From positions 1 through 64,000 of the forward strand of contig NZ_JAQJZJ010000002.1 of NCBI RefSeq assembly GCF_027988105.1: DNA of 64,000 bases, in the 5' to 3' direction. Shown in pieces: positions 30,214 through 49,440 of the stretch. The notes beneath the pieces were generated by a model. The model was not told the DNA's origin. It saw nothing but the letters and a program-made list of their open reading frames with translations, and ran no database searches. This DNA is from Pseudomonas aestuarii (GTDB taxonomy: Bacteria; Pseudomonadota; Gammaproteobacteria; Pseudomonadales; Pseudomonadaceae). Within the stretch, counting starts at the first letter, position 1. The number at the start of each line of letters is the position of its first letter. Position numbers and translations under genes: made by a program.

Positions 30214-30502
30214 AGGCATCATGACCTTGCTGCCCCCGCACGATGGTCATCCTGGCATGGAGATCACCTGGGCGGCGGATTGTCGACAGGCCTTCAACCA
30301 AGGTGTGAGCTTCGCCCAGACCTGGCTCGACAATGCCCGTAGCGGCTGGCTTTGGGCCGCTATGATTGCCGAGCGCGATCTATTGCCTTGCGCCATAGAG
30401 AGACGGGCTTTCGAAGTCGGCTTCCTCAGCCGCATCCATCAGCGCTTATGCTCGCCACAGTGGTGCGGCGAGTTAATTAAGGATGCGGCGTTAAGCCTAT
30501 GA
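30206..30502 (+). CDS. Small ICE protein of unknown function
   Basis: Protein of 98 aa, coupled to the preceding gene (start ATG inside its last codons; ribosome site GAGGAGG). Trp-rich in the middle (MEITWAADCRQAFNQGVSF, ARSGWLWAAMIAERD) and helical by pattern, with four Cys. No family recognised; the tight pairing and length suggest a conserved ICE accessory gene. Confidence 0.62.
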   Translation: MTKGIMTLLPPHDGHPGMEITWAADCRQAFNQGVSFAQTWLDNARSGWLWAAMIAERDLLPCAIERRAFEVGFLSRIHQRLCSPQWCGELIKDAALSL

Positions 30503-31863: not shown

Positions 31864-32235
31864 ATGTCGCATACACCCGAGTTGTACAGGCAACCTCGCC
31901 TCGTCGATCTGGACTCGCCCCATCACCGCAAGGCCGGCCCGACATCACACGCAATGAACCCGTCAGCGCGCGAGAACGCAGGAGAAACCCAGAAGCCCGC
32001 CCCCTCCCCTCGCTACCTGACCAACGACGAAGCTGCGGACTTCCTGCGCCTATCGCCGCGAACGCTGGAGAAGCAGCGGGTGATCGGCGGCGGGCCGCGT
32101 TTTCGCAAGTTCGGCCGGCGGGTAATGTACGCCTTGGCCGACCTCGAGACCTGGGCCGATGCGCGCAGCTTTGAGACCACCTTCGATCCCGAGTACCTCG
32201 AGCGCCACCAGGGAGCGAACCGCCATGATCAGTGA
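31864..32235 (+). CDS. AlpA/excisionase-like HTH protein
   Basis: Protein of 123 aa. The C-terminal half (PRYLTNDEAADFLRLSPRTL, then GPRFRKFGRRVMYALADLET) is a MerR/excisionase-type winged HTH; the N-terminal 45 residues are likely disordered. Such proteins in Tn4371-type ICEs act as recombination directionality factors or transcription activators. GGAGGA lies just before the ATG. Its stop overlaps the GTG of repA, so the two are translated together. Confidence 0.82.
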   Translation: MSHTPELYRQPRLVDLDSPHHRKAGPTSHAMNPSARENAGETQKPAPSPRYLTNDEAADFLRLSPRTLEKQRVIGGGPRFRKFGRRVMYALADLETWADARSFETTFDPEYLERHQGANRHDQ

Positions 32236-33176: not shown

Positions 33177-33321
33177 CGCACGAACGCCTCTGCAGGCCAC
33201 GACTGGTGCGGCTTTCAGCCTCTCTTAACTTAACTAACTTAAAAGCTCTAACTTGTTATTGGGGCAGCCCCCTTCTGTGGACAGGTGCTACGCGACAGCA
33301 TTTTGCCTGGAGGACCAGGCC

Positions 33322-33960
33322 ATGATCGTCGCCCTGCTTAACCAGAAAGGCGGGGTCGGCAAGACCACCCTCGCCACCCATATCGCCGGTGAACTGGTCC
33401 TTCGCGGTCAGACCGTGATCCTGCTCGATGCCGACCCGCAGGGCTCGTCGCTGGACTGGACGCAACGGCGCAGCCAGCAGGGGCTGCCCAGGCTGTTCAG
33501 CGCCGTCGGCCTGGCGCGCGAGACCCTACACCAGGAAGCACCAGAGCTGGCCAAACAGGCCGACCACGTAATCATCGACGGCCCACCACGCATCGCCGCC
33601 CTTGCACGCTCGGCGCTACTGGCAGCGGATCGCGTGTTGATACCGGTGCAGCCCAGCCCTTACGACCTGTGGGCCAGCGCAGAGATGGTCAACCTGATCC
33701 GCGAGGCGCAGGTGTTCAGGCCGTCACTGCGCGCCGCCTTCGCCATCAACCGTCGAGTCAGCACCACAGTGATTGGCCGTGAGGCCCGCAGCGCCCTCGC
33801 CGACCAACCGCTGCCCGCCCTGCAGGCGGAGGTGCGCCAGCGCATTGTCTTCGCCGAGAGCGTTGCCGCTGGGCGACTGGCACGCGAACTGGCCCCCGAC
33901 AGCGCCGCCGCGCGCGAGATCAGCAGCCTCGTCGACGAGCTGTTGAGGTGGACCACATGA
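33322..33960 (+). CDS. parA: ParA-type partition ATPase
   Basis: Protein of 212 aa, a small ParA (type Ib) without an N-terminal HTH. The deviant Walker A motif NQKGGVGKTT is at residues 7-16, Walker A' at LLDADPQGSSLDW, and Walker B-like HVIIDGPPR follows. It should segregate or stabilise the excised element. The ATG at 33322 has GGAGG 8 nt before it. ATGA overlap with the next gene. Confidence 0.92.
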   Translation: MIVALLNQKGGVGKTTLATHIAGELVLRGQTVILLDADPQGSSLDWTQRRSQQGLPRLFSAVGLARETLHQEAPELAKQADHVIIDGPPRIAALARSALLAADRVLIPVQPSPYDLWASAEMVNLIREAQVFRPSLRAAFAINRRVSTTVIGREARSALADQPLPALQAEVRQRIVFAESVAAGRLARELAPDSAAAREISSLVDELLRWTT

Positions 33961-34199: not shown

Positions 34200-34720
34200 C
34201 CAGTAATACCCAGGCTCTGGCGGAGCAATCGCCACCTGTACTGACTGAGTGCGCGCACGTCATACCGCTGACGCGCGTCTTGCTGGCTTACGTGGAGGAA
34301 CGCTTCAACCTCTACCTGCGCTTCGGTCACCCAGCGCAAATCCGCCGGCAAAATCACAGGAGGAGCATTGCGCTGTTCGCGCCAGCCACCTTGTTCTGCC
34401 GTATTCGCTGGGAGGCAAACGACTACGGAACGACTCGCTGGCAGTTGTTGGTGCTGCAGGCCGGGACGCTACACGAGCCGATGCAACGCATCGCTGGCAT
34501 CTGGCCCGGTGCGAGTGTCCTGTTGCAAGCAGATGGCGACAATCAGGTACGCGCCGTACTCACGCAGATAGATGCTATCGAGGCGCTCGGGCTCGACCCA
34601 ACACAAGTGTCCCCAAGCTACTGGCGGACGTTGGGCAACCGCCTACGCGCCCGCATGCCACTGCCCGCATATACGTGCGATAGGCATGTCGCCTGGATTG
34701 CGGGGAGTGCGCTGCATTGA
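34196..34720 (+). CDS. DUF2840-family ICE protein
   Basis: Protein of 174 aa in the conserved parAB-traF interval of Tn4371-like elements, where DUF2840 genes are always found. Segments LTRVLLAYVEERFNLYLRFG and WRTLGNRLRARM fit the family as I know it. The function is not established. It overlaps parB-like and traF genes by 4 nt each, so it belongs to the same transcript. Confidence 0.72.
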   Translation: MTSNTQALAEQSPPVLTECAHVIPLTRVLLAYVEERFNLYLRFGHPAQIRRQNHRRSIALFAPATLFCRIRWEANDYGTTRWQLLVLQAGTLHEPMQRIAGIWPGASVLLQADGDNQVRAVLTQIDAIEALGLDPTQVSPSYWRTLGNRLRARMPLPAYTCDRHVAWIAGSALH

Positions 34721-35244
34721 CGACTCGCATTCACTTCAACTGGCTGCCGTTACTACTGGTCGCTGGCAGTTTGGCTGCACTGGCCTGGTCGGCGTTTGGT
34801 ACACCGTTACAGTGGATCATCTACAACGGCTCCGACAGCGTGCCGATGGGCTGGTACCGCATCACGCTGACCGGCTCACCGGCAGTCGGCAATATCGTGC
34901 TCACTCGGCTTCCGCCGGCTGCCGCGACGCTGGCTGCACAGCGCAGCTACCTGCCGACACACATCCCACTGCTCAAGACAGTCTTCGCCATCGCGCCACA
35001 GCGCGTGTGCATAAGGGGGAAGCACGTGTTGGTCGACGACCAAGTCGTAGCCGAACTGCTAGCGCATGACCAACTCGGACGCCCACTACCCGCCTGGCAG
35101 GGATGTCGTCCCCTCGCAGGAGATGAGCTGTTCCTACTCAGCGTCGACAATCCGGAGTCGTTCGACAGCCGTTACTTCGGGCCTATCTCCGCCGCCACGG
35201 TGATCGGTCGGGTGCAGCCGCTGTGGTTAGAGACGCGTCCATGA
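34717..35244 (+). CDS. traF: TraF-like S26 signal peptidase
   Basis: Protein of 175 aa with one N-terminal membrane segment (LPLLLVAGSLAALAWSAFG) and the S26C peptidase signature: Ser in SDSVPMGWYRI and the general-base Lys in PLLKTVFAIAPQ. RP4 TraF cyclises the TrbC pilin; here it should process the trbC product encoded at 60208. It starts at a TTG overlapping the DUF2840 stop (TTGA). Confidence 0.88.
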   Translation: MTTRIHFNWLPLLLVAGSLAALAWSAFGTPLQWIIYNGSDSVPMGWYRITLTGSPAVGNIVLTRLPPAAATLAAQRSYLPTHIPLLKTVFAIAPQRVCIRGKHVLVDDQVVAELLAHDQLGRPLPAWQGCRPLAGDELFLLSVDNPESFDSRYFGPISAATVIGRVQPLWLETRP

Positions 35245-35579
35245 CCTTGCCTCCCTTGCGACAACCTGCCTGCCGAGCGCACGTGATCGGCTTGCGAGAT
35301 CGCGCGCCGCCACCGTGCAGACGGCTCTCCCCTTGCCCGCCGGCTCGGGCATCACCTGAGCAACCCGAACACACCTCTCAGGGACGCCAAAGCCTGGATA
35401 AAGCGGAGGGCAAGATAAAAGGGCGCAGCACTTCGTGGCGCTTGAAGGCAGTCTGCACAGGGGGTGGAGGCGGCACAAACCCGGCCTCGGCTGGGTGCCG
35501 TGCAGTGCCGCTTGCCAGCATCAAGCCTGGCAGAAACGCGTGCCTGGCACGCTGCAGTGCGATCACGTTGGAGGGGTAA
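35241..35579 (+). CDS. Doubtful reading frame after traF
   Basis: A 112-codon frame overlapping the traF stop by ATGA. Composition is odd: rich in Pro, Arg, Cys and Gly (APPPCRRLSPCPPARASPEQ, a GGGGG run) with no predicted fold. It may be a real coupled small gene, but it could equally be an open G+C-rich frame over the leader of the relaxase gene. The opposite strand is also open here (35378-35869). Confidence 0.3.
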   Translation: MTLPPLRQPACRAHVIGLRDRAPPPCRRLSPCPPARASPEQPEHTSQGRQSLDKAEGKIKGRSTSWRLKAVCTGGGGGTNPASAGCRAVPLASIKPGRNACLARCSAITLEG

Positions 35580-35584
35580 TTAGG

Positions 35585-37525
35585 ATGACCAAGGAGCGAG
35601 ACCACGATGGCGAACAGCGCTTCCGCCCCCGACCGGGGGCACCGAAACAGCGCGATCAGACCTTCATCAACCAGGTGCTGCGCCAGGCCAACAAGGCTGG
35701 TACCGGTAAGACGCGCAAGGCAGGACATCAACCCGGCCCACGCCTCGGCCGCGGCCATGTCGCCGCACGCTTCAGTGCGCAACAGGTATCGCCCAATTCG
35801 CGCCGGGTGACCATCAAGACCCGCCTGGTGAACCTGCGTCAGGCCGGCAAACGCTCGACCCTCAGCCACCTACGCTACATTGAGCGCGACGGCGTAAGTC
35901 GCGAAGGCAACCCCGGCAAAGCCTACGGCCCACAGACAGATCAGGTCGATGTAGAAGCTTTCGAGAAGCGCGGCCGGGAGGATCGCCACCAGTTCCGTTT
36001 CATCGTCTCACCCGAGGATGCCGAGCAACTCGATGATCTACGCACCTACACCCGCCACCTGATGAGCCGCATGGAGGCCGATCTGGGCACCCGCCTTGAC
36101 TGGGTGGCGGTCGATCACTGGAACACCGATAACCCGCACACTCACATCGTCCTGCGCGGCAAGGACGAGACGGGCAAGGATCTGATTATTGCCCGTGACT
36201 ACATCGCCGAGGGCATGCGCAATCGTGCCGCGGAATTGGCAACAGAATGGCTCGGACCACGCACCGACCTGGAGATCCAGCGCAGCCTGCAGCACGAGGT
36301 GCAGCAAGAACGCTGGACGAGCCTGGATCGCGCCTTATTACGCGAGCGCCAGGCCAATCTAGTGCGCCTTGACAGCCTGACCGGCCACCCACGCAGGCAA
36401 CTGTTGATCGGACGTTTACAGCACTTGCAGAAGATGGGGCTTGCAGTCGAGGATCGACCTGGCCAGTGGATGATCGGTCGCGATATAGAGTCTACGTTGA
36501 GAGCCATGGGCGAACGCGGCGATATCGTGCGAACGATGCAGCGCGCCATGGGGGGCGTACAGCGTGACATCGCGATCTTCGAGCCGAGCACTGGTAGCGA
36601 CGTTGTAGTTGGCCAGGTGGTAGCAAAAGGGCTGGCGGACGAACTGCACGACAAGGGCTATTTGGTGGTGGACGGGATCGACGGCAAGGCCCACTACCTC
36701 GCCTTGCCCGCACGCATGGAACTGGTCACCTTCCCGCTCGGCGCGGTGGTCGAGGCTCGAGGCTCATTCGTGCCGCGTGCAATAGACCGCAGCATTGCCG
36801 CACAGGCAGTCGCAGGCCTGTATCGCAGCGATCGTCACCTTGCAGTAGCCAAGAGCCTAGGTCGTGACACACAGGCTCTGGTCGAATCGCATGTGCGGCG
36901 TCTGGAGGCCTTGCGTCGGGCCGGGGTTGTCGAACGGGTTGCCGAGGGCGTCTGGCGAGTGCCAGCCGATTTGCCCGAGCAAGGTCGTCTGTACGACGCC
37001 CGCCGACTTGGCGACGTGTCCGTTAATCTCCGTACGCCCCTATCCATCGAGCGGCAGATCCGCGTTATGGGGGCAACGTGGTTGGATCAGCAACTGATTG
37101 ACGGCGGTAAGGATTTGTCGGGCAAGGGCTTTGGCGCGCAGGTGCGCGAAGCACTGCGTCAACGTGCAGATTACCTGGTGGATCAGGGCTTGGCCGAACG
37201 TAAAGGCGCGCGTGTCTTACTTGCTCGAAACTTGCTGGCGACACTGCGTGGGCGCGAGCTATCGGCCACCGCTCAGGACATCATGGCGAATACGGGTATG
37301 CAGTACCGCCCGGCGTTAGACGGCGAACGTGTCAGCGGGATTTATCGACGCAGCGTGCAGTTGGCCAGCGGCCGTTTCGCCCTACTCGACGACGGTCTCG
37401 GCTTCAGCCTCGTGCCCTGGAAACCCGTGATCGAGACGAAGCTCGGGCAGAGCATTTCTGCAGTCGTGCAGGGCAATGGCGTGTCGTGGCAGTTGGGCCG
37501 GCAACGCGGGCCGGCGATCGGCTGA
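35585..37525 (+). CDS. rlxS: Relaxase RlxS (DUF3363, VirD2-like)
   Basis: Protein of 646 aa that nicks oriT and leads the transferred strand. The N-terminal relaxase domain has VTIKTRLVNLRQAG, LSHLRYIERDGVSREG and the metal-binding HUH-type motif in DNPHTHIVLRGKD; the rest (about residues 230-640) is DUF3363, ending VVQGNGVSWQLGRQRG. This architecture is typical of Tn4371-like ICEs. The ATG at 35585 is preceded by GGAGG and continues MTKERDHDGEQRF; the longer upstream frame lacks a ribosome site. Confidence 0.9.
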   Translation: MTKERDHDGEQRFRPRPGAPKQRDQTFINQVLRQANKAGTGKTRKAGHQPGPRLGRGHVAARFSAQQVSPNSRRVTIKTRLVNLRQAGKRSTLSHLRYIERDGVSREGNPGKAYGPQTDQVDVEAFEKRGREDRHQFRFIVSPEDAEQLDDLRTYTRHLMSRMEADLGTRLDWVAVDHWNTDNPHTHIVLRGKDETGKDLIIARDYIAEGMRNRAAELATEWLGPRTDLEIQRSLQHEVQQERWTSLDRALLRERQANLVRLDSLTGHPRRQLLIGRLQHLQKMGLAVEDRPGQWMIGRDIESTLRAMGERGDIVRTMQRAMGGVQRDIAIFEPSTGSDVVVGQVVAKGLADELHDKGYLVVDGIDGKAHYLALPARMELVTFPLGAVVEARGSFVPRAIDRSIAAQAVAGLYRSDRHLAVAKSLGRDTQALVESHVRRLEALRRAGVVERVAEGVWRVPADLPEQGRLYDARRLGDVSVNLRTPLSIERQIRVMGATWLDQQLIDGGKDLSGKGFGAQVREALRQRADYLVDQGLAERKGARVLLARNLLATLRGRELSATAQDIMANTGMQYRPALDGERVSGIYRRSVQLASGRFALLDDGLGFSLVPWKPVIETKLGQSISAVVQGNGVSWQLGRQRGPAIG

Positions 37526-37540
37526 ACGATGGTGCTGCGC

Positions 37541-38395
37541 TCATTCCAGCCCAGGTTCCTGCTGCAGCCATTGCTCAAACAGTCGACTCTCAGGTTTGCC
37601 TTCCTTCGCCGCGTAGTACACCAGGCGCAGGTGGCGATCCTCGTCGATGGTCAGCGTGGTGTGCTCAAAGACCACCTGGCCAATCTCCTCAATGTGCAAA
37701 TTCCGTATGCCTTGGCAGGGGCCGTGGATGTCCTGCTGTCGCCACCAGGCCTTGAAGTCGGGATCGACCTTCTCCAGGTCCTTCACCAACGCGGCAATAT
37801 CCGGATCCTGGGTCGCACGCACGAAGTCGCGACGAAAGCTCGAGAGGATCTGCAGTGCCTGCTCTTCCCAGGGATTGAATAGCTCACGCATCACCGGCGT
37901 GGTGAACAGCATCCACAGCAGGTTGCGGCGATCTGCCGGGTGCGCGGAAAAGCCGAATACCCGATCCGCTGCCGCGTTCCAGGCCAGTACATCCCAGCGC
38001 AGGTTGAGTACGTAAGCCGGACGCGAAGGGATGTCCTCCATCAAACGGTGTATCAGCGGCGGTACGACGCACCAAGTCCGGCCTGGCTCCGCCGGCAAAC
38101 GCTGGTGAGCCAGCAGGAACAGATATCGTCGCTCTGTTGCGTCCAGCTTGAGCGTTCGGGATAGGTTATCCAAGAACGTGGAAGACACACTGATGTCCCG
38201 CCCCTGCTCCAGCCAGGTGTACCAGGACAGTCCCACCCCTGCCAGGGCCGCGACCTCCTCGCGGCGCAATCCAGGCGTCCGTCGCCGGCTGCCGGCGGGC
38301 AGTCCCACATCCTCCGGTGAAATCCGCTCACGCCGACTGCGCAGGAATTCAGCCAGCTCTGCCCGGGAGCGTTCGAGTGTGCGAGGCGCGCTCAT
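37541..38395 (-). CDS. MmyB-type Xre regulator of biosynthetic cluster
   Basis: Protein of 284 aa with N-terminal Xre HTH (TPGLRREEVAALAGVGLSWY, then LEQGRDIS) and C-terminal MmyB-like ligand-binding domain (AYVLNLRWDVLAWNAAADRV). These regulators sit beside antibiotic and stress genes, and the domain binds small hydrophobic ligands. The ATG at 38395 has GGAGGT 7 nt upstream. It is divergent from the ALAS-like gene across 156 bp that must hold both promoters (A+T-rich, with TATACT and TATAAG candidates on the minus strand). It is the likely cluster regulator. Confidence 0.85.
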   Translation of the reverse strand: MSAPRTLERSRAELAEFLRSRRERISPEDVGLPAGSRRRTPGLRREEVAALAGVGLSWYTWLEQGRDISVSSTFLDNLSRTLKLDATERRYLFLLAHQRLPAEPGRTWCVVPPLIHRLMEDIPSRPAYVLNLRWDVLAWNAAADRVFGFSAHPADRRNLLWMLFTTPVMRELFNPWEEQALQILSSFRRDFVRATQDPDIAALVKDLEKVDPDFKAWWRQQDIHGPCQGIRNLHIEEIGQVVFEHTTLTIDEDRHLRLVYYAAKEGKPESRLFEQWLQQEPGLE

Positions 38396-38551
38396 CCAGT
38401 TACCTCCAGTAATAGTATAAACAGTCAAATTGTAACCCTTATAAATCCAAACAAGAATACCTCCTCCCTGGCCGTAAAGGAGCGTGCCAGGGTGCTTGCT
38501 TGATGAGGAAAAACACATCGACGTGTCATCAACTGCTCAGGAGATATACGG

Positions 38552-39784
38552 ATGTACCAGGCACTTCTTCGCGAACAACTGGAGACATTGAAGTCATCCA
38601 ACCAGTACCGCACTTTCACCACTCTCAGCCGCATCTGCGGCCAGTACCCACTGGCCAAATTGACAGGTACAAACCAGCGACCGGTGGTTGTCTGGTGCAG
38701 CAACGACTACCTCGGCATGTCCCAGCACCCCATCGTCCGCGAGGAGATGCACGACGCGCTGGAGACTTACGGCGCAGGCTCTGGTGGCTCGCGCAATATT
38801 GGCGGCTCCCATGAGATTTATGCCCGCCTGGAAGAAAGCCTTGCCGATTGGCATGGCAAGGAAGCGGCCTTGGTCTTCCCTACCGGCTTCGGCTCTAACG
38901 ACGCCACGATCCAGTGTCTGCTGCGGCAGATTCCGGATTGTGTGGTGGTAAGCGATGAGTTGAACCATGCCTCCATCGTCAGCGGCATTCGCTCGACGCC
39001 GAACGAGCGCAAGATCTTCCGGCATAACGACGTTGCCCACCTGGAGCAGATACTCGCCGGCTACCCACTCGGCCAGCCAAAGCTTGTCGTATTCGAGTCC
39101 ATTTACTCGATGGATGGGGACATTGCGCCCATCGCAGCGATCGTCGAAATCGCCAAGCGCTACAACGCGCTCACCTACCTCGATGAAGTGCATGCCGTCG
39201 GCATGTACGGCCCGCGCGGCGCTGGTATCGCCGCCGAGCGTGTGCTGGCAGACCGGGTGGATATCATCCAGGGCACGATGGCCAAGGGCATCGGCGTTAT
39301 AGGCGGCTATATCGCCTCGACCCAGGTCATCGTCGACGCCGTGCGCTCCTTCGCCACCGGTTTCATCTTCACCACTTCCCTGCCGCCCGCCATTACGGCC
39401 GGCTGCCTGGCCAGCGTGAATCACCTCAAGGTAAGCAGCCTGGAGCGTGATCTTTTGCGCACCAATACTGCCAAGCTACGCGAGCGCCTCAAGCACCACG
39501 ACGTGCCAGTCATGCCCTGCTCGCAGACTCACGTACTGCCGGTGCTGGTAGGTGATGCGCAGCGCTGCAAGGCCGCGGCAGAACGTCTGCTGCACATCCA
39601 TGGTGTGTACCTGCAGCCAATCAACTACCCGTCGGTACCGATAGGCACCGAACGCTTCCGGGTCAACGCCACCCCGAACCACAGCGACGAGCAGATCGTG
39701 CATCTGGCGGCCTCGCTGCGCGAGACCTTCGAGCACTTCTCCATACCCCTGGCCTCCCAGGCCTTCGGCACGGAGGTGGCCTGA
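38552..39784 (+). CDS. 5-aminolevulinate synthase-like enzyme
   Basis: PLP-dependent alpha-oxoamine synthase of 410 aa, closest in pattern to ALA synthase ([27 protein letters not shown]). Lys245 (GTMAKGIG) is the Schiff-base Lys. Ser80 (SGGSRNIGG) replaces the Thr of the canonical SGGTRNISG; that Thr (T83 in Rhodobacter capsulatus ALAS) restricts the enzyme to glycine. With succinyl-CoA and L-serine the product would be 5-amino-6-hydroxy-4-oxohexanoate, the alaremycin precursor. Pseudomonads make haem by the C5 route, so a haem role is unlikely. First gene of a five-gene operon; ribosome site AGGAG. Confidence 0.9.
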
Positions 39785-39785
39785 G

Positions 39786-40289
39786 ATGGATCACACCTTC
39801 CTTACCGTGCGCCCCGCGACCATTACCGACCTGGGCAGCCTGGTCGAGTTGCGTGCGCACTTGCTGGACGGCACCTCGGCCAGCTACTCGAGCCGGACTC
39901 CGGATGACGCCATGCGCTGGCGTGCGGCCTACCGTGCCTGGCTGACCAGCCGGCTGAGTGAAAGCGACTGCGTGCAAATCCTGGCGGCCGAACACCGGGA
40001 GTCAGGCCAGGTGCTCGGCTGCGCAACGGCGATTATCGACCAGCGCGCACCGGCTACGGGATGCCTCAATGGTCTTTCCGGCTGGGTACAGTCGGTGGTG
40101 GTGGAGCCCCAGTGGCGCAACCGCGGCATCGCCCGGCAATTGATGCAGCACCTGCTGCGCTGGTTCGCCAACCGTGGCGTCGGTACCGTGGTACTGCAGA
40201 GCACCGAGGAAGCCGGTGCGCTGTACCAGGCCTTAGGTTTCACGGTCAGCGGTGAGCGCTTACTGATTCGTCAGGAGGCCCAGGCATGA
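39786..40289 (+). CDS. GNAT N-acetyltransferase
   Basis: Protein of 167 aa with the acetyl-CoA-binding motif A (SVVVEPQWRNRGIARQLMQH) and motif B (LYQALGFTVSG). It starts 1 nt after the ALAS-like gene and overlaps the next gene by 4 nt. In the proposed pathway it acetylates the 5-amino group of the ALAS product, giving the acetamido group of alaremycin. Self-protection by acetylation is an alternative. Confidence 0.88.
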   Translation: MDHTFLTVRPATITDLGSLVELRAHLLDGTSASYSSRTPDDAMRWRAAYRAWLTSRLSESDCVQILAAEHRESGQVLGCATAIIDQRAPATGCLNGLSGWVQSVVVEPQWRNRGIARQLMQHLLRWFANRGVGTVVLQSTEEAGALYQALGFTVSGERLLIRQEAQA

Positions 40290-41356
40290 GAATCCTGATC
40301 ATCGGCCTCGGCTACGCCGGCCAGCGCTACCAGCGGGCTTTTGAACACATCGCCACCAGCACCGGCATGCCGCTCACCCTGGCCTATGTCGGCCGGCGCC
40401 AGAAACCAACCGAACTTCCCTACTTCGACAGCGTCGGCCGGGCGCTGGAGGAGTTCGCGCCCGAGATCGTCGTGGTCAGCGTCAACGACCACAGCCACGC
40501 GCCCGTACTGCAGCAACTGGCTGGCTACCAGGGCTTCGTGATCTGCGAGAAGCCGCTGGTCACACCGCAGGACGACCTGGCCACTCTCCACGCCGGACTG
40601 GGGCAAGTCAGCGGCTTTGCCCTGGACCTGGTTGAGCGCTACTCGGAGGCCAGTCGGCAACTGCGCGAGTGGGTCGAGCGACATGGCTGGCAGTTGGTGC
40701 GCGCCAACTTCCACTGGGCTAAGGATCGCATCAACGATTATCGCCCTACTTGTGGCGTAACCAGCGAAGTGATCCATGCCCTGGACCTGCTCGGCTGGAT
40801 CTGCCCACGAGCAGGCCTGCTCAGGCTGCAGGGTGTGCTCGGCGCGCGCTCGGACTTTTCGATCTCCGGCAGCGAGGTACTCGATACCGTGCTGCTGACG
40901 GCGAGCCTGGGTGAGGCGCAGGTGACCGGCTACAGCAGTTTCGTCAACATCGTTCGCCAACGCACGGTCGACTTCAGCTTCGTCGACCGCGACGCCCGGC
41001 TGATACACGCACGCCTGGTGTTCGACACACCGCGCTGGGACCACGACCAGTTGCGCATATGGACGCGCACGGCCAGCGGCACCGAGGAACTGCTGCACGA
41101 GTATGCCTGCGCACCCAACGATCCAGGTCTGGACACCATTCACAAGCTGGCGCGGCTGTGTCTGCAGGTGGTGCGCTGGGTCACGCTCAAGGAGCCGCCG
41201 CGCCAGGCATTCGCCGACCTCGACACCGCCGTGGCCCTGCAGCGGTTGCTCAACGAACTCGACACCCATGCGCAGACCCCGCCTCCGGCTCGCTACATCC
41301 ATGGCGAGACGCGTGCACTGCTGCCTGAAGACAGCGATCTGGAAAGCCTCGGGTAA
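40286..41356 (+). CDS. Gfo/Idh/MocA-family oxidoreductase
   Basis: Protein of 356 aa with an N-terminal NAD(P) Rossmann fold (ILIIGLGYAGQRYQ, then EIVVVSVNDHSHAPV) and the CEKPLV motif whose Lys is catalytic in the family; the C-terminal alpha/beta domain starts about residue 125. In an alaremycin-type route the hydroxymethyl group has to be dehydrated to the exomethylene, and a Gfo/Idh enzyme could do this by transient oxidation; this step is inferred from cluster logic. Confidence 0.85.
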   Translation: MRILIIGLGYAGQRYQRAFEHIATSTGMPLTLAYVGRRQKPTELPYFDSVGRALEEFAPEIVVVSVNDHSHAPVLQQLAGYQGFVICEKPLVTPQDDLATLHAGLGQVSGFALDLVERYSEASRQLREWVERHGWQLVRANFHWAKDRINDYRPTCGVTSEVIHALDLLGWICPRAGLLRLQGVLGARSDFSISGSEVLDTVLLTASLGEAQVTGYSSFVNIVRQRTVDFSFVDRDARLIHARLVFDTPRWDHDQLRIWTRTASGTEELLHEYACAPNDPGLDTIHKLARLCLQVVRWVTLKEPPRQAFADLDTAVALQRLLNELDTHAQTPPPARYIHGETRALLPEDSDLESLG

Positions 41357-41379
41357 CCCAAGATCACAAGGAGAACTTT

Positions 41380-43233
41380 ATGTGTGGAATCGCTGGATGG
41401 CTGTCCTACAGCCAGAACATGGAAGCGCAACGCGACACCCTGCAGCGCATGACCGACACCATGGCCCTGCGCGGGCCGGACGCCGGCGGCGTGTGGATCG
41501 ACGGCCCGGTCGGCCTCGGGCATCGCCGGCTGTCGATCATCGACCTAAAAGGCGGTCGCCAACCTATGACAGTGCGCCAAGGCAGCCTGCGTGAAGTCGC
41601 CGCGATCACCTACAGCGGCGAGGTCTACAACTTCCGCGAACTGCGCACCGAGTTGCAGCGGCGCGGGCACCAATTCGAGACCCGTAGCGACACCGAAGTG
41701 GTGCTGCGCGCCTATGTGGAGTGGGGCGAGGCCTTCGTCGAACGGCTCAACGGCATGTACGCCTTTGCTATCTGGGACCTGCGCTCACAGGAGCTCCTGC
41801 TGATCCGAGACCGCATGGGCGTGAAGCCGCTCTACTACTTCCCCACTGCGGATGGTGTGGTCTTTGGCTCCGAGCCCAAGGCGCTGCTGGCCAACTCCTT
41901 GGTACCGCGCAAGGTCCGCGCCGATGGCCTGCGCGAAATTCTGGAGATGGTTAAGACGCCGGGGCACGCCGTGTTCGACGGCATGCGCGAGGTGATGCCG
42001 GGCGAGATCGTGCGGGTAAACCGACAGGGTGTGAACAGCCGGCACTACTGGAAACTGCAAGCACGCGAGCACTGCCACTCGCTGGATGAGACTATCCGCC
42101 ACACCCGCGACCTGCTGGAAGACATTGTCGACCGTCAGATCGTCGCCGACGTGCCACTGTGCAGCTTGCTGTCGGGCGGCCTCGACTCCTCAATCATCAC
42201 CGCCCTTGCCTCGAAGAAGTTGCTGGCTGCCGGCAAGGAGAACATCCGTTCCTTTTCGCTCGACTTCGTCGACCACGGCGGCGGCTTTACCGGCGATGCC
42301 GTGCGTGGCACACCGGATGCCCCCTTCGTCCGCGACTTGGTGGAAAAGATCCGCTCCAGTCACCAGGAAATCATGCTCGACAGCCGCGAGCTGGCTGATC
42401 CAGCTCTGCGCGCGCAGATCGTCCGCGCGCTCGACTTGCCTCCAGCGTTCTGGGGTGACATGTGGCCGTCGCTCTACCGCCTGTTCCAGGAGGTGCGCCA
42501 GCACTCGACGGTGGCGCTGTCTGGCGAGAGCGCGGACGAGGTATTCGGCGGCTACCGCTGGTTCCACGACCCGGTGGCGATCCAGGCCGACACTTTCCCC
42601 TGGCTGACCTCGGTCACCGGCAAGTACTTCGACGGCAAGACCTTGTTCGACCAGAGCCTGCTGAGCCAACTGGATATGCACAGTTTCCTGCGCGACAGCT
42701 ACGTCCAGGCCATCGCCGAGGCGCCGGTGCTGCCAGGTGAGAGTGCGGTGGACCAGCGCATGCGGCAGATGAGCTACGTCAACTTGACGCGTTTCGTGCA
42801 GACCCTGCTGGATCGCAAGGACCGCATGAGCATGGCCGTCGGCCTCGAGGTGCGGGTGCCCTTCTGCGACCACCGTCTGGTGGAGTACGCCTTCAATATC
42901 CCCTGGGCACTGAAGGCCTTCGACGGCCGGGAGAAAAGCATCCTGCGCGCGGCGACTCGCGATCTGCTGCCGGAGTCGATCTCCGAGCGGGTCAAAAGCC
43001 CCTACCCCTCGACCCAGGATCCCGCGTACGAGCGGGCGTTGCGCAACTCGCTGGCGGACATCCTCGCTGACCGTAATGCGCCGGTCACACCGTTGCTCGA
43101 CTCCAGCCGGGTCAGGGACGCCCTGGACAAGCCGCTTGGCAGCATCTCGCCCATGTACGAACGCATGGGTATGGAGCTGGCGGTCGGCCTCAACACCTGG
43201 CTGAACGAGTACGACATCAGCCTCGAACTCTAG
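41380..43233 (+). CDS. Glutamine-dependent asparagine synthase-like amidotransferase
   Basis: Protein of 617 aa with the class-II glutaminase domain (nucleophile Cys2 in MCGIAGW, RLSIIDLKGGRQP, YSGEVYNFRELR) and a C-terminal ATP-pyrophosphatase synthetase domain (LLSGGLDSSIITAL; SGESADEVFGGYRWF). Both active sites look intact. Within this cluster it probably amidates a carboxylate of the pathway product; converting alaremycin to its amide would give primocarcin. Ribosome site AAGGAG before the ATG. Ordinary asparagine synthesis is possible but would not explain the operon. Confidence 0.9.
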   Translation: MCGIAGWLSYSQNMEAQRDTLQRMTDTMALRGPDAGGVWIDGPVGLGHRRLSIIDLKGGRQPMTVRQGSLREVAAITYSGEVYNFRELRTELQRRGHQFETRSDTEVVLRAYVEWGEAFVERLNGMYAFAIWDLRSQELLLIRDRMGVKPLYYFPTADGVVFGSEPKALLANSLVPRKVRADGLREILEMVKTPGHAVFDGMREVMPGEIVRVNRQGVNSRHYWKLQAREHCHSLDETIRHTRDLLEDIVDRQIVADVPLCSLLSGGLDSSIITALASKKLLAAGKENIRSFSLDFVDHGGGFTGDAVRGTPDAPFVRDLVEKIRSSHQEIMLDSRELADPALRAQIVRALDLPPAFWGDMWPSLYRLFQEVRQHSTVALSGESADEVFGGYRWFHDPVAIQADTFPWLTSVTGKYFDGKTLFDQSLLSQLDMHSFLRDSYVQAIAEAPVLPGESAVDQRMRQMSYVNLTRFVQTLLDRKDRMSMAVGLEVRVPFCDHRLVEYAFNIPWALKAFDGREKSILRAATRDLLPESISERVKSPYPSTQDPAYERALRNSLADILADRNAPVTPLLDSSRVRDALDKPLGSISPMYERMGMELAVGLNTWLNEYDISLEL

Positions 43234-43321
43234 CCACCAACCGGATGTTGCCCCGGTTCGGGGCCGCATCCCTCAGCGGTACCACCTACGCGCCTCCACT
43301 AGAGCGCAAGCGAGCCTGAGC

Positions 43322-44521
43322 ATGCACACACACAACCAATCCCCGATCTACCTGATAGCGCTGGGGGCCTTTGCCCTTGGCATGGCCTCCTATGTCACCG
43401 CCGGATTGATCCCGATGATCGAGGCGTGGTTCTCAGTGTCCGTGGCGGTCGCCGCCCAGTTGGTCACCGCCTTCACCCTGGCCTACGGCCTGGGCTCCCC
43501 GATCTTCGTCGCCCTGACCCCAGCGCATCGTCAGCGCACCGGCCTGCTGCTGGCTCTGGGCCTGTTCGTCATCGCCAACGCCGCCAGCGCGCTGGCTGAG
43601 GACTTCACCTTGCTGATGATTTGGCGAGCCATCGCCGGCATCGGTGCCGGCGTCTACCTGGCCATGGGCATCGGTGCCTCGGCGGCGGTGTCCACGCCGG
43701 AACGCCGAGGCAAAGCCATCGCCATCATCATGGGTGGCATGGCCAGTGGCGTGGTGCTGGGCGTGCCACTCAGCCTGCTCGTCGCCGAACAGATGGGCTG
43801 GCAGTCCGCCCTGTGGCTGGTCACCCTACTCGGCCTGGTGGCGTTCTTCGGCTTGCTGCTGAAACTTCCAGCTCTGCCCGCTGCGACGGCTACCTCTCTG
43901 AGGCAGAAGCTGGCGATCCTGGGTGACGGCCATGTACTGGTCATCTTGCTGGTATCTCTGCTCGCGGCCATCGCCAGTCTAGGTATGTATACCTTCATCG
44001 CGCCGCTGCTGGCGGATCCGGCCTACGGCGCGGTGCGCTCGGTAACACCCTACCTCTGGGTGTGGGGCATCGGCGGCGTGCTGGGCAGTTTTCTGATCGG
44101 CCCACTGGTGGACCGTATCAAGGGCCCGACCCTGACCTTCGCCATCATGCTGATCCTCGCCGTATCGCTGTTCGCGCTTCCGCTGACAGCTACCCTCAGC
44201 ACCTGGCTGGTCATGCTGCCTATCGTTCTCTGGGGCGCTGTTGGCTGGGCCCTGCAGGTGCCGCAGAACAATGAGTTAATCCTGGCCCGCCAGGCCCAAG
44301 GCGATGGCAACCTAGCCATCGCACTGAACGAGTCGGCGCTCTACCTGGGCAGCGCCATCGGCGCCGCGGCGGGTGGCTTCGTGCTGCTGTTGCAGATACC
44401 CATCTGGACCTTGGCCGCCAGTGCCGGCGGCGTGGCCGCGTTGGGCGTCCTGCTGCAGATCATCAACCTGCGGCGCCAGCCAAGCTGGGCCGGTAGTGTC
44501 CAAGCCAAACCCTACAACTGA
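43322..44521 (+). CDS. MFS exporter of the cluster product
   Basis: DHA1-type MFS transporter of 399 aa with twelve membrane segments (YLIALGAFALGMASYVTAGL, GIGAGVYLAMGIGASAAVST). This branch (AraJ/NepI-like) exports small metabolites and drugs. Last gene of the biosynthetic operon, 89 bp after the amidotransferase; a GCCCCG/CGGGGC hairpin (about 43250-43264) without T-run lies in the gap. It should export the product and provide self-resistance, as no resistant copy of ALA dehydratase (HemB) is nearby. Confidence 0.87.
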   Translation: MHTHNQSPIYLIALGAFALGMASYVTAGLIPMIEAWFSVSVAVAAQLVTAFTLAYGLGSPIFVALTPAHRQRTGLLLALGLFVIANAASALAEDFTLLMIWRAIAGIGAGVYLAMGIGASAAVSTPERRGKAIAIIMGGMASGVVLGVPLSLLVAEQMGWQSALWLVTLLGLVAFFGLLLKLPALPAATATSLRQKLAILGDGHVLVILLVSLLAAIASLGMYTFIAPLLADPAYGAVRSVTPYLWVWGIGGVLGSFLIGPLVDRIKGPTLTFAIMLILAVSLFALPLTATLSTWLVMLPIVLWGAVGWALQVPQNNELILARQAQGDGNLAIALNESALYLGSAIGAAAGGFVLLLQIPIWTLAASAGGVAALGVLLQIINLRRQPSWAGSVQAKPYN

Positions 44522-44543
44522 CTCAACACATGGAGGAAAGGCC

Positions 44544-45470
44544 GTGGAACTGCGCCATCTTCGCTGTTTCATCGCCGTTGCAGAGGAACTGCACTTCGCG
44601 CGTGCGGCCGCGCGCCTGCACATCGAGCAGTCGCCCCTCTCCCGGATCATCAAGGAATTGGAGTACCGCCTGGGTGTCCAGCTGTTCGAACGTACGACGC
44701 GTCGCACACGACTGACCTGGGCTGGTCAGGTGTTGTTGGAAGAGGCCCGGCGGGTGTTCGCCGTCGTCGACCAAGCCAAGGCCAGCGTCAAGAGCGCCGC
44801 AGCCGGATACCGCGGACGCTTACGTGTCGCGCTATCCGACGGCATACCGCAGACACGCCTGGCCGCCCTGCTCGCCCAGTGCCGCGAGCAGGAACCAGAA
44901 GTCGAGATCTGCCTGTCTGAGGTCACCTTCACCGAGCAGGTCAGAGGGCTCAACGATGACCTGTTCGATATAGGCTTTGCCCAATCTGACGACGTTAACC
45001 AGGGGCTAGTGGCAGAGCCGATCTGGGTCGATCCACTGGTAGTTGCGGTGCCTGCCCGCCACCCTCTTCTGACCCATCGACGCATCCCACTCGAAGAGGT
45101 CGTCCGCTACCCTTTGGTGCTGTGTGATCCGCAGGTCTGCGAGGGCTTCTGGCAGCAACTACAGCGAGTGCTAAGCACCGTGGAGGCAAGGCTGACTATT
45201 GCCGACCGCGTGCCAACGCTGGATCTGATGATGGCGCTGGTAGCAGCTGGCTACGGCCTGGGCTTCTCCAGCCTTGCTCGAATTACTGAACTCAACAACC
45301 CCGACGTAGTGGCCCGCCAATTGGCAGGCAGCCCCGCGATGCTGACCACTTACCTGATACATCGCGAGGCGGAACCTTCTGAACAGCTAGGCAGGTTCAT
45401 CGACAGAATACGCCCTGCCGAAGACCAAGCCTTGTTACCCACCCAAACCCAACGAGAGGATATCGCCTGA
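44544..45470 (+). CDS. traR: TraR-like LysR regulator of the ICE
   Basis: Protein of 308 aa with N-terminal LysR HTH (ELRHLRCFIAVAEELHFARA, QSPLSRIIKELEYRLG) and C-terminal effector domain. The GTG at 44544 has GGAGG 7 nt upstream; the frame is open further upstream only over the end of the MFS gene. In Tn4371-type ICEs a LysR gene, traR, occupies the position between the relaxase and traG; I assign it there rather than to the biosynthetic cluster, since it ends directly on the EexN-like gene. Confidence 0.78.
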   Translation: MELRHLRCFIAVAEELHFARAAARLHIEQSPLSRIIKELEYRLGVQLFERTTRRTRLTWAGQVLLEEARRVFAVVDQAKASVKSAAAGYRGRLRVALSDGIPQTRLAALLAQCREQEPEVEICLSEVTFTEQVRGLNDDLFDIGFAQSDDVNQGLVAEPIWVDPLVVAVPARHPLLTHRRIPLEEVVRYPLVLCDPQVCEGFWQQLQRVLSTVEARLTIADRVPTLDLMMALVAAGYGLGFSSLARITELNNPDVVARQLAGSPAMLTTYLIHREAEPSEQLGRFIDRIRPAEDQALLPTQTQREDIA

Positions 45471-45824: not shown

Positions 45825-46229
45825 ATGACGGCAGCATTCCAAGCTCAAGACTTTTCGAAAAGCCAATGTGCAGCCGGCCTGCGTACAGCGCTGAACATCC
45901 TGGACAAGTGGAAGGCCTCCTCCGAACAGGCCTGCCAAATCTTGCGTATTTCGCGCAGCACCTATACCCGAGCCAAGCAACGTGATTCGGAGTGGGCGGT
46001 AGGCCTGGACTTTGATCAGATGCAGCGCATCAGCCTCGTGCTGAATATCCATGCGGCACTGCGCCTGGTGTTCGACAACCCCGAAAACGTCTATGGCTTC
46101 CCCTCGATGGAGAATCGCAACGAATTCTTCAACGGGCGCGCGCCGCTAGACATCATGGCGCAGGGCGACATGATCTCGCTGTACGAGACATTCCGACGGA
46201 TCGACGCGCTGCGGGGCGCCCAGTGGTAA
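45825..46229 (+). CDS. Xre/MbcA/ParS-type antitoxin
   Basis: Protein of 134 aa. The first part (LNILDKWKASSEQACQILRI, STYTRAKQRD) is the Xre-like HTH and the C-terminal part (HAALRLVFDNPENVYGFPSM, PLDIMAQGDMISLYETFRRI) is the MbcA/ParS toxin-binding domain with the PLD/G and LxxTxRRID signatures. It neutralises the RES toxin and probably represses the operon. A GAGGAG ribosome site precedes it. Confidence 0.92.
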   Translation: MTAAFQAQDFSKSQCAAGLRTALNILDKWKASSEQACQILRISRSTYTRAKQRDSEWAVGLDFDQMQRISLVLNIHAALRLVFDNPENVYGFPSMENRNEFFNGRAPLDIMAQGDMISLYETFRRIDALRGAQW

Positions 46230-46924
46230 TGCTAAGCAGTCTTCCTGCCTTGGAAGGCGAGAGCCTGCAAGCCTACCGCTTGGTCAACTCCAAATTTCCG
46301 CCCATTGCCTTGTTCGATGATGTCGCTGACGCAGCAGACTTCGAAGCCATTTATCAGCTTCAGGCAATGACGAACCCAAGACTGCAGAACGAACTTGGCC
46401 GGTTGGAGCTGATTCCTCGCAACCAGATCCCGTTCGGTATTCCTGGATGCTCTTACGCCACGGCGCCCTTCACCCATGTGAACCCGGCAGGCTCACGCTT
46501 TAGCAATGGCAGCTTTGGCGTGCTCTACCTGGCCGACAAGATGGACACCGCGATTGCAGAGGTGCGCCATCACCAAGAGCGCTACTGGTCGAACGTGCCA
46601 GGCCTCAATTACGAGCGCTTTGTCTTCAGAGGGCTGGCCTGCAGCTTCACTGATGCTGGGATGAGAGACGCAACACTAGTGCCGCTGTCGGCCCCCATAT
46701 ATGCACCTGACGATTACACGCTTTCTCATCAATTGGGAGGCGAAACGAAGCGCGCGACATGCACGGGCCTGCGCTACAACTCGGTCCGCTCCCCAGGCAA
46801 CATTTGTTGGGCGCTGATGACACCGAGGATTGTTGCGTCAATCATCCAGGCTGCTCATTTTGAGATGATCTGGAGCGGACAGATCATCAGCGTCAACCGG
46901 ATTACAACGTTGATAGCCGAATAA
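46229..46924 (+). CDS. RES-domain NAD+-degrading toxin
   Basis: Protein of 231 aa. The conserved Arg, Glu and Ser of the RES fold are seen in PAGSRFSNGSFGVLYLADKM, TAIAEVRHHQERY and LRYNSVRSPGNICW. RES toxins cleave NAD+ by an ADP-ribosyltransferase-like fold and stop growth. The ATG at 46229 overlaps the antitoxin stop by one base (TAATG), so translation is coupled; a GTG at 46223 is an alternative. The pair would stabilise the ICE. From 46925 to 47018 nothing is seen. Confidence 0.9.
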   Translation: MLSSLPALEGESLQAYRLVNSKFPPIALFDDVADAADFEAIYQLQAMTNPRLQNELGRLELIPRNQIPFGIPGCSYATAPFTHVNPAGSRFSNGSFGVLYLADKMDTAIAEVRHHQERYWSNVPGLNYERFVFRGLACSFTDAGMRDATLVPLSAPIYAPDDYTLSHQLGGETKRATCTGLRYNSVRSPGNICWALMTPRIVASIIQAAHFEMIWSGQIISVNRITTLIAE

Positions 46925-47211: not shown

Positions 47212-49440
47212 TCACGAAAGAGAAGCAGGGGTCTCAAGTCCAATCAGATGAGCTGCGGTTTGCTGTGCTTTCTCCAGATCGAGATACATCGTGGCGAACG
47301 ACTCCATAAGAAGCTCAGGAGGCAGCGCCCAGTCCCACTTCTCCCTGATCATATTCTGAACGTTGTGAAGGACAGTGCTCGCCTTAAGCTCCTTCAAAGC
47401 TGCAACCTCTCGAAGAGTGCTTTCAAGCAACGCCCCTCCACCCTGCACCTCAATGACCAGTCCTGAGTTTTCAGTGGGCAAGCCGACGTACTCGAGAAGG
47501 ACGGCCAAGGCATCGTTGGTCCAATCGCCCTGCCAGGTGAAAAGACAGGTTCTTCCTCCGCTCTCAATAAAGCTCTGATGACCCAACTTAAGATCAGCAA
47601 AGCTTTGCCGCGCCTCCGCCAGTAAACTTTGTGCCACTGGATCGAGGTAGGGATAAGCCTCCTCTTCCTGCAGTACGGTTTTCATCTCTTGCCGAACATT
47701 GTCGTGAACTCGAGCAGCCAGACCGTCAAAAGCCGGGGGAGCTCCTCCTGGGGCGGGCTTGACGACAATCACCTTGCCTTCCGTATCAACGTTAATCACC
47801 TGCCAACGACGCCCGGCGAAGATGATGCGCTGTTCCGCACACAGTGGTCGCGAGATAGGCAGGGCCCCAAGGGGTCTTCCATCGCAAACAACTCGGAATT
47901 CTTCATTGCTTGTGAATGCACTGTAGAAGTCATAGTGGTTGATCAGCCGCTCGCCCAACTCACCTGGCAGTAGAAGCCCGGCCGGTTCCTGAATGATCAG
48001 ATCTCGCTCACCCAAAGCACGCAGGAGATTCAGAAAGCTGCCCTGCTCGACAGCCAAGAAAGGGCCGTTGCGTACTAACGTTCCCCACAACTCAGCCGCA
48101 GTGGCACCACCTTGCTGCGCAATCATCGAGAGGCATTGTTGCACCAAGGTCGACAAATGCAGCCCCTGCGCTCTTGGCGGTTCAAACCATCCCCTCATCA
48201 GTAGCCGGATCATCGCGATGCTTTGTACCAAGCCTTGGCGCAGGCGATCCGATATTGGAGAGTCATCCGTCAATCGACGCTCCTTGCAGTATCCGCGGAT
48301 AATAGCTGCCTCTCCTGGGCGACGCCCAGAACGGCCAAGACGCTGGCGCAAACTGGCAACTGAAGGCGGCGGCCCTATCTGTACAACCGTTTTGATGCTG
48401 CCAATATCGATGCCCAGTTCCAGCGTAGTGGTACAGACCGCAGTCGCCGGTCGGTCCCCCGCTTTAAGGGCCCGCTCGGTATCCTCCCTGATATCTTTCG
48501 ACAGGCTGCCATGATGTGGCCAGAACTCATTAGGTACACCGTCTTGCTCGCAGCGACGCCGTAGCTGATCGGCAAACCATTCGACCTGAGTCCTACTGTT
48601 AGGGAACACCAAGTTGTTGCTTCCACGCAGCACCTGGAAGAGGTGCTCGGAAATTGCGTGATCGGAGGCTGAGTTGTCTTCGGGCTGCTGGGGTGTGCCT
48701 TTCTCTGGTTCCTGAAAGCCTCTGATCTGAACTTTCAGAATTTGCCCCGACCCTTTCGATTCGATCACCGTCACCGTGCTCGGGGAAGCTGAGCGCAAGA
48801 AGGTAGCAGCCAGCATCATGTCGCCCAGTGTCGCTGATAAACCTACTCTCGGAAGAGGACGTCCGATTACCTGTTCGACCCGATGCATCAAGGACTGCAG
48901 TTGCTTGCCTCGCTCACTGCCGATAAAAGCATGCAACTCATCAATCACGAGGTAGCGCAGGTTCGCGAAAATCCCGGGCAGACTCGTCCCCCTGTTCACG
49001 AACAGCGCTTCAAGAGACTCCGGGGTGATCAACAGCACGCCTTCAGGGGATTTTAGAAAGCGGTGCTTGCGGCTCGACGAGATATCGCCGTGCCAGGCAA
49101 CGACGGGAATCTCGAGTTCGTCGCATAGCTTGCTCAATCGCTCCCACTGGTCATTGATCAGTGCCTTGAGCGGACTGATGTAAAGCACTGACCCTGGCGG
49201 TTCCTGCTGCTTCAGCAGGTTCGTCAGAATGGGCAGGAACGCGGCCTCGGTTTTCCCCGCCGCCGTCGCCGCGGCGATGATGACATCCTGATCAGCATTG
49301 AGCAGCGCGGGGATGGCCCGCTCTTGGGCATCTCGTAGAGAGGTCCAGCCTTCCATCCATATCCAGCGCTGAATCCGGGAGTCAAGAAGGCTGAAGGCCT
49401 CCGACTCAGAGCTGGAAGGTTGCGAGCTCATCTTCAGCAT
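47212..49440 (-). CDS. sngC: Shango SngC-like Lhr-type helicase
   Basis: Superfamily 2 DEAD/DEAH helicase of 742 aa. Motif I is AAATAAGKTEAAF, motif II is VIDELHAF (DELH), motif III is GLSATLG, and motif VI is QRLGRSGRRPGEA. The large C-terminal region matches the Lhr/BrxHI helicase group. It is the third gene of a TerB-ATPase-helicase operon, the composition of the Shango anti-phage system. It overlaps the ATPase gene by about 35 nt (an in-frame ATG at 49431 gives a slightly shorter overlap). Confidence 0.88.
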   Translation of the reverse strand: MLKMSSQPSSSESEAFSLLDSRIQRWIWMEGWTSLRDAQERAIPALLNADQDVIIAAATAAGKTEAAFLPILTNLLKQQEPPGSVLYISPLKALINDQWERLSKLCDELEIPVVAWHGDISSSRKHRFLKSPEGVLLITPESLEALFVNRGTSLPGIFANLRYLVIDELHAFIGSERGKQLQSLMHRVEQVIGRPLPRVGLSATLGDMMLAATFLRSASPSTVTVIESKGSGQILKVQIRGFQEPEKGTPQQPEDNSASDHAISEHLFQVLRGSNNLVFPNSRTQVEWFADQLRRRCEQDGVPNEFWPHHGSLSKDIREDTERALKAGDRPATAVCTTTLELGIDIGSIKTVVQIGPPPSVASLRQRLGRSGRRPGEAAIIRGYCKERRLTDDSPISDRLRQGLVQSIAMIRLLMRGWFEPPRAQGLHLSTLVQQCLSMIAQQGGATAAELWGTLVRNGPFLAVEQGSFLNLLRALGERDLIIQEPAGLLLPGELGERLINHYDFYSAFTSNEEFRVVCDGRPLGALPISRPLCAEQRIIFAGRRWQVINVDTEGKVIVVKPAPGGAPPAFDGLAARVHDNVRQEMKTVLQEEEAYPYLDPVAQSLLAEARQSFADLKLGHQSFIESGGRTCLFTWQGDWTNDALAVLLEYVGLPTENSGLVIEVQGGGALLESTLREVAALKELKASTVLHNVQNMIREKWDWALPPELLMESFATMYLDLEKAQQTAAHLIGLETPASLS

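Follow-up and report, generated by a model that had tools for sequence, protein, structure and literature searches.

The first 64,000 positions of contig NZ_JAQJZJ010000002.1 of Pseudomonas aestuarii (the whole stretch analyzed, hereafter the window) carry a five-gene operon that, with a probability of about 0.62, is a compact 5-aminolevulinate (ALA) antimetabolite cluster in which an alaremycin-like acid is converted into a primocarcin-like amide, borne as cargo by an integrative and conjugative element (ICE) whose relaxase and coupling-protein genes lie on either side of it. The five-gene set probably makes a small antibiotic that mimics ALA, the heme precursor. Carriage of the cluster by an ICE is well supported. 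The cluster and its immediate surroundings contain the following features:

37541-38395, minus strand: MmyB-type regulator (HTH_31 and MLTR_LBD domains), divergent from the operon; the listed open reading frame (ORF) extends to 38518, with the likely start at 38395
38399-38462: conserved divergent promoter/operator block with a sigma-70-like TTGTAA (38430), 17 bp and AAGAAT, directed toward the ALA synthase (ALAS) gene, assigned from alignment and spacing
38552-39784, plus strand: ALAS-like alpha-oxoamine synthase (proposed substrates L-serine and succinyl-CoA)
39786-40289, plus strand: GNAT N-acetyltransferase, PF00583 (proposed N-acetylation of the amino ketone)
40286-41356, plus strand: Gfo/Idh/MocA-fold NAD(P)-type protein (proposed dehydration of a hydroxymethyl ketone to the enone)
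41380-43233, plus strand: glutamine-dependent amidotransferase of the asparagine-synthase type, with Cys2 and SGGLDSS intact (proposed conversion of acid to amide)
43322-44521, plus strand: MFS exporter (MFS_1)
about 44544-45470, plus strand: LysR-type regulator (listed ORF start 44373; family match from residue 58)

All of the named operon genes are open at these coordinates among the window's ORFs, as the first-pass annotation had described: ALAS-like, GNAT, Gfo/Idh, intact amidotransferase and MFS genes, divergent from an MmyB-type regulator. Its statement that the operon lacks an acyl-CoA ligase also stands, with no such ORF in 37541-45470. The ALAS-like protein matches TIGR01821 with 536 bits (cut-off 338.55); solved ALASs are its nearest relatives by both sequence and predicted structure (7x98: Z 53.6, root-mean-square deviation 1.5, 397 aligned; 2bwn: Z 52.9, root-mean-square deviation 1.5, 391 aligned). 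The sole Pfam match of the Gfo/Idh protein is weak (PF01408, 36.4 bits; cut-off 24), its predicted structure (mean pLDDT 91.9) has the Gfo/Idh fold based on a PDB structure search, and G7-G9-G12, E88-K89, H164 and D167 are kept in 27/27 aligned rows of the family. The amidotransferase combines Asn_synthase (PF00733) and GATase_7 domains, with Cys2 and SGGLDSS invariant in 11/11 aligned rows (from the 40 loci that have the gene).

The operon is under purifying selection; the ratio of nonsynonymous to synonymous substitution rates (dN/dS, NG86) is 0.05-0.26 in all 24 comparisons of six genes (regulator, ALAS, GNAT, Gfo/Idh, amidotransferase and MFS) with four relatives. These ratios, together with the recurrence of the neighborhood in 64/64 real related loci, argue that the operon is not a product of chance. 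The promoter block is recognizable in 36 of 38 aligned upstream regions, from Pseudomonas to Xenorhabdus (two Streptomyces regions differ), and is kept even at loci L053-L055, where Gfo/Idh identity drops to 51-58%. Since this conserved block lies directly upstream of codon 38395, the regulator probably starts there rather than at 38518. A LysR gene lies 3' of the cluster in most Pseudomonas copies.

The most economical reading of the gene set is the joining of serine and succinyl-CoA, N-acetylation, dehydration, amidation and export. The ALAS homologue would join L-serine and succinyl-CoA to yield 5-amino-6-hydroxy-4-oxohexanoate, which would be N-acetylated by the GNAT enzyme. Removal of water by the Gfo/Idh protein would generate the exocyclic enone 5-acetamido-4-oxo-5-hexenoate (alaremycin), the glutamine amidotransferase would convert its carboxylate to the amide (primocarcin), and the MFS protein would export the product, with the cluster likely controlled by the MmyB-type and LysR regulators. 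HemB (porphobilinogen synthase, PbgS) would be inhibited by the product or by the acid freed from it inside a competitor. We infer each of these chemical steps, the product, its target and present-day transfer of the cluster, and an alaremycin/primocarcin-type product is the best inference available. Alaremycin, a Streptomyces product, displaces ALA in PbgS (PMC12670364).

Distribution and enzyme lineages of the cluster

When 84,980 species, each represented by a single genome, were scanned with the Gfo/Idh alignment, 72 loci were returned. Those numbered L085-L092 were dropped as unrelated Gfo/Idh proteins without cluster neighbors, leaving 64 real loci (L021-L084). The cluster neighborhood is present in 64/64, with gene order varying in some: ALAS is within about 3 kb of the Gfo/Idh gene in all 64 and GNAT in 63, an MFS gene is found in 62 by the cut used, and the core trio (ALAS, GNAT, Gfo/Idh) is intact in 57. 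The loci originate from 43 Pseudomonadota, 10 Bacillota, 10 Actinomycetota and one contig of a cyanobacterial metagenome-assembled genome. The latter contig (L033) has a Pseudomonas-type cluster and ICE genes; it is included in the counts and is probably mis-binned.

The amidotransferase is encoded at 40/64 loci, at 38 of them over at least 90% of its length. This form occurs in Pseudomonas and genera split off from it, Stutzerimonas, Billgrantia/Halomonas, one of two Brenneria, one of two Xenorhabdus and three actinomycetes, and the form without amidotransferase in 10/10 Bacillota, 7/8 Streptomyces, Rahnella, Bartonella, Chromohalobacter and others. On well supported branches, the Gfo/Idh tree requires the amidotransferase to have been gained or lost at least twice (L017, L079, L083 and L084 are left out of this and the GNAT tree). 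Within a plasmid collection, the trio is located on plasmids of Parageobacillus, Rahnella and two Staphylococcus capitis strains (9.3-kb MOBV plasmids); one of these S. capitis strains has its ALAS match broken into two pieces, with no gene annotated there. Nothing on S. capitis with ALAS and plasmid was found in the open-licence literature. Viral carriage of the cluster was rejected (four pattern matches, none of them a relative).

An ALAS tree of 119 rows, constructed by a quick method (L017 not entered; the broken or partial L028, L051, L064, L076, L077, L079 and L135 left out), recovers the cluster enzymes as two clades apart from the HemA clade (34 alphaproteobacterial rows; Shimodaira-Hasegawa-like approximate likelihood ratio test, SH-aLRT, 88). 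Clade A comprises 61 rows including the window enzyme (SH-aLRT 98), and clade B comprises six actinomycete rows (SH-aLRT 99) that are closer to other Streptomyces ALASs (94); the non-cluster Streptomyces rows group apart from the window enzyme. In both clades the ALASs have related GNAT and Gfo/Idh proteins as partners; the exception is clade B row L122, with no Gfo/Idh match in the surrounding 20 kb. Recruitment or replacement of the first enzyme thus probably took place at least twice. The root of the tree is uncertain because the branch of the BioF outgroup is very long. Two further plasmids, from Priestia (L013) and Macrococcoides (L016), encode a clade A ALAS with no GNAT or Gfo/Idh match nearby; the gene adjoins an IS3 transposase in the former and a DMT transporter in the latter.

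Thr83 of the R. capsulatus enzyme directs the amino-acid specificity of ALAS, and its replacement by Ser marks the cyclizing enzymes of 2-amino-3-hydroxycyclopentenone (C5N) biosynthesis (PMC4525017). The equivalent position is Ser in 70/70 cluster ALASs and Thr in 34/34 alphaproteobacterial HemA proteins. It is likewise Ser in all 21 Streptomyces ALASs fetched; 17 of these fall outside the cluster clades, and because all 17, C5N-type enzymes included, have this residue, it was rejected as a marker of serine use. Pro110, directly before the helix that follows the 105-109 strand, is present in 67/67 cluster rows vs. 1/51 others (1/17 other Streptomyces, 0/34 HemA). It may be the better candidate for a specificity residue than Ser at the Thr83 position, and it is a testable one. 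An AMP-binding acyl-CoA ligase adjoins ALAS in both non-cluster Streptomyces loci examined, which are of the C5N type, and one of the two is L125, the sole non-cluster row with Pro110. The window ALAS keeps Ile146, Asp237 and Arg368, at which the 17 non-cluster Streptomyces rows have Leu (14), Thr (17) and Ile (13), respectively. Residue 361 (Thr365 of R. capsulatus by alignment) is Ser in 40/40 cluster ALASs accompanied by the amidotransferase and Thr in 22/27 without it, a distribution confounded with phylogeny.

Proposed pathway and alternative products

Several observations weigh against a serine-derived enone amide. The closest structures to the Gfo/Idh protein are mostly dehydrogenases, and a dehydratase role would be unusual for such a protein. 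Its structure matches do include, among others, NAD-dependent oxidoreductive glycosidases, which act by elimination chemistry, so there is precedent for such chemistry in the fold. Serine use gains no support from Ser at the Thr83 position, because C5N-type ALASs share this residue; a sign test on Pro110 is without power, because the tree allows at most two independent origins, and Pro110 also appears in one non-cluster row. Among solved structures, the amidotransferase is closest to a hydroxyamidotransferase (7YLZ), which makes a hydroxamate product possible. The core is not intact in 7/64 copies. Finally, growth of P. aeruginosa is reported to be inhibited by alaremycin (PMC12670364), and a Pseudomonas producer would therefore need protection. 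A second HemB was not found, with one HemB gene in the genome and none in 69 cluster loci; HemB was rejected as an in-cluster self-resistance gene, and the MFS exporter is the only candidate for self-protection.

The foremost alternative is glycine use by the ALAS. The operon would then make N-acetyl-5-aminolevulinate and the corresponding amide, and the Gfo/Idh protein would serve as a reductase or dehydrogenase. The strong TIGR01821 signature and the glycine-using ALASs that are the best structural neighbors of the window enzyme are consistent with this, as is the Ser at the Thr83 position of C5N-type ALASs, which are taken to use glycine. We nevertheless consider glycine use unlikely: the conserved Gfo/Idh partner would be left without an evident job, and the cluster ALASs are phylogenetically distinct and all have Pro110.

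Another small amino acid could also be the substrate, e.g., L-alanine, yielding the amide of 5-acetamido-4-oxohexanoate, which is related to 5,6-dihydroalaremycin. 8-Amino-7-oxononanoate synthase, a solved relative of the window ALAS, uses alanine. Ser at the Thr83 position could fit the side chain, given the role of Thr83 in amino-acid specificity (PMC4525017), but dehydration would be unnecessary and the Gfo/Idh protein would thus have no obvious role, which makes this route distinctly improbable.

A third alternative concerns the last step: if the amidotransferase transfers hydroxylamine and not ammonia, the alaremycin skeleton would end up as a hydroxamate. While the closest solved structure by sequence is that of the hydroxyamidotransferase TsnB9 (7YLZ; 573 bits over 608 residues), glutamyl hydroxamate formation by the TsnB cassette depends on a pair of amidooxygenase subunits (PMC13418202), and no amidooxygenase gene is present in the operon, to which the search for one was confined. 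For the related Dip5, formation of a plain amide has been proposed (PMC13122635). A hydroxamate is, in our view, highly improbable.

Plasmid homologues are named hemA in public records, which would fit an auxiliary ALAS for heme supply with unrelated neighbors. The host, however, carries glutamyl-tRNA reductase and thus has the C5 route, so that an ALAS is not needed for heme; the window ALAS has Ser at the Thr83 position and lies in a separate clade outside HemA, and its partners are conserved across three phyla. This explanation, which has a very slight chance of being correct, was rejected. C5N biosynthesis has a negligible chance and was likewise rejected: although the window ALAS and C5N-type enzymes both have Ser at the Thr83 and Thr365 positions (the latter by alignment), the ligase that neighbors ALAS in the two C5N-type loci is missing from the operon, and the window enzyme, with its Ile146, Asp237 and Arg368, is separate from the cyclizing clade.

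The conjugative element and its other cargo

The genes of the element lie on both sides of the cluster:

29960-30502: QslA (LasR anti-activator family), near the RepA end; also in relatives G213, G277 and G399
30817-31329: ArdA antirestriction gene, near the RepA end; also in G213, G277 and G399
32232-33092, plus strand: RepA replication initiator (PF10134), ICE core
33253-33960, plus strand: ParA, ICE core
34717-35244, plus strand: TraF-like S26 peptidase, ICE core
35435-37525, plus strand: relaxase (DUF3363; weak MobA/VirD2-like match), directly upstream of the cluster
56734-58761, plus strand: TraG-type coupling protein, ICE core
59207-60211, plus strand: TrbB-like ATPase (T2SSE family), ICE core
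60745-63258, plus strand: TrbE-like ATPase, ICE core
C2:72463-72539 (C2 being the window's own contig): tRNA-Pro(GGG), next after the integrase

Beyond the window, contig C2 encodes TrbL, VirB8, CagX and TrbI family proteins, followed by a tyrosine recombinase (PF00589, 35.3 bits) whose gene ends at C2:72389. The element has a relaxase, a coupling protein, mating-pair (trb) genes, an integrase and an att repeat, which bears out the earlier proposal that the cluster is carried on a conjugative element. The P. aestuarii assembly (5.16 Mb) is in 61 contigs, and the att direct repeat, an exact 48-bp copy of the tRNA end, is split between C2 (72460-72507) and another contig of the genome, C17 (10260-10307), where it sits without a tRNA; within the window, no repeat of at least 14 bp that could mark attL was found. 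The chromosome follows the tRNA-Pro (a pheT-like ORF was read), and the right flank of C2 matches 5/5 relatives at the same place. The left flank of C17 has only a 52-bp match among five relatives (G003, 96%), to the natural 3' flank of the tRNA. The C17 and C2 ends would belong to one element, of about 120 kb if the two contigs abut.

The order QslA-ArdA-RepA-ParA-TraF-relaxase-cluster-TraG-TrbB-E-L-I recurs in G213, G277 and G399, in which the cluster contigs are 4.4-5.5 Mb long. G399 has an integrase with 91% identity beside tRNA-Pro, with no second tRNA-end copy of at least 16 bp within 180 kb, and no homologous integrase was found within the 180-kb stretches of G213 and G277. The integrase has no match in 69 loci, whose stretches mostly stop short of the element ends. 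A 34-bp motif of the tRNA-Pro(GGG) end is present in one copy in 17 of 25 genomes (own included) and in two or more copies in 8, as expected of an island hotspot. This suggests that the tRNA-Pro(GGG) 3' end is a general island hotspot in the genus.

The cluster goes together with a single conjugative-element lineage. Among 398 same-genus genomes, own included (two draws of 398 taken as the same set, with only two relaxase candidates scored per genome), the cluster is present in 14 (Gfo/Idh, E of 1e-40 or better) and a relaxase of at least 73% identity in 12, with 10 of these 12 carrying the cluster. None of 18 further genomes having only relaxases of 61-67% identity carries it (0/18), and there are four cluster genomes without a listed relaxase. 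Across the 64 loci, ICE genes are within the fetched stretch in 20, several stretches being cut by contig ends.

Given the ICE location and the related sets in three phyla and on small plasmids, the antibiotic trait probably spreads between bacteria. More tentatively, it is possible that a three- to five-gene ALA-antimetabolite cassette functions as a mobile weapon module across three phyla, located on a Pseudomonas conjugative-element lineage and on plasmids down to a mobilizable one of 9 kb in skin Staphylococcus capitis, with a first enzyme recruited from ALAS at least twice, and with the amide of the ICE version being an uptake-friendly prodrug that competitors hydrolyze to the HemB inhibitor. 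To our knowledge, few studies have treated the making of antibiotics as a trait that can be transferred. Should the product prove to inhibit HemB, its production could pass from strain to strain, and the cluster would then offer a defined model in which to ask whether antibiotic production spreads in the way that resistance does.

Further genes lie in or near the same element. Three genes in the window (47212-53220, minus strand) match SngA, SngB and SngC, presumably the Shango anti-phage defense system, and lie in the same ICE hotspot. An Xre-RES toxin-antitoxin-type pair is encoded at 45825-46924; a RES gene also follows the cluster in 9/64 other loci, of Pseudomonas and Stutzerimonas types. 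A zeta-toxin-like kinase gene (C2 68879-69622; L098 8879-9622) is close to the integrase end. Aconitase, FAD-binding monooxygenase-type, aldehyde dehydrogenase and other catabolic-type genes occupy window 3021-28523 and L103 10308-20000 (the L103 names are from ORF reading); they are probably further cargo or genes of an adjoining island.

Comparison with known systems

Okui et al. are said to have described, in 2025, the alaremycin biosynthesis genes of Streptomyces sp. A012304, which reportedly include an ALAS homologue, an N-acetyltransferase and an oxidoreductase-type enzyme. The window cluster resembles this set in its presumed gene functions, and differs in its extra amidotransferase and its location on a Pseudomonas ICE. 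Primocarcin is the amide of alaremycin, and an amide is what the window amidotransferase would yield; no open-licence paper naming primocarcin was found. As the literature search covered open-licence papers, we make no firm claim that the cluster is undescribed.

The amidotransferase belongs to the same family as TsnB9 (7YLZ) of trichostatin by sequence, and as Dip5 by its description (PMC13122635), but unlike the TsnB-type hydroxamate cassette, the window operon is without amidooxygenase partners. C5N clusters with a cyclizing ALAS likewise use an ALAS homologue in secondary metabolism, with Ser at the Thr83 position, whereas the window cluster has no acyl-CoA ligase, belongs to another clade and includes GNAT and Gfo/Idh genes. 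A C5N-type Streptomyces locus (L180 786-2603) encodes an amidotransferase 58% identical to that of the window.

By gene order, the element is putatively of the Tn4371 type. It shares with such elements the order repA, parA, traF, DUF3363 relaxase, traG and trb, with cargo between relaxase and traG, and differs from them in having its integrase at the trb end beside tRNA-Pro and an antibiotic-type cargo.

The 'Black box' non-cyclizing hemA loci of actinomycetes are a further likeness, as plasmid pGEOTH01 of Parageobacillus thermoglucosidasius carries the ALAS/GNAT/Gfo-Idh trio. The legend of Figure 7B in PMC4525017 mentions Geobacillus thermoglucosidasius in connection with the transfer of a hemA locus between bacilli and actinomycetes; the transferred locus is presumably the pGEOTH01 trio. 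In that paper, the context of the 'Black box' loci is called not conserved and their function speculative. Here, by contrast, GNAT and Gfo/Idh genes accompany the ALAS time and again, in a broader range of hosts and in a mobile context, which points to a possible function for actinomycete ALAS genes left unexplained in that 2015 survey (PMC4525017).

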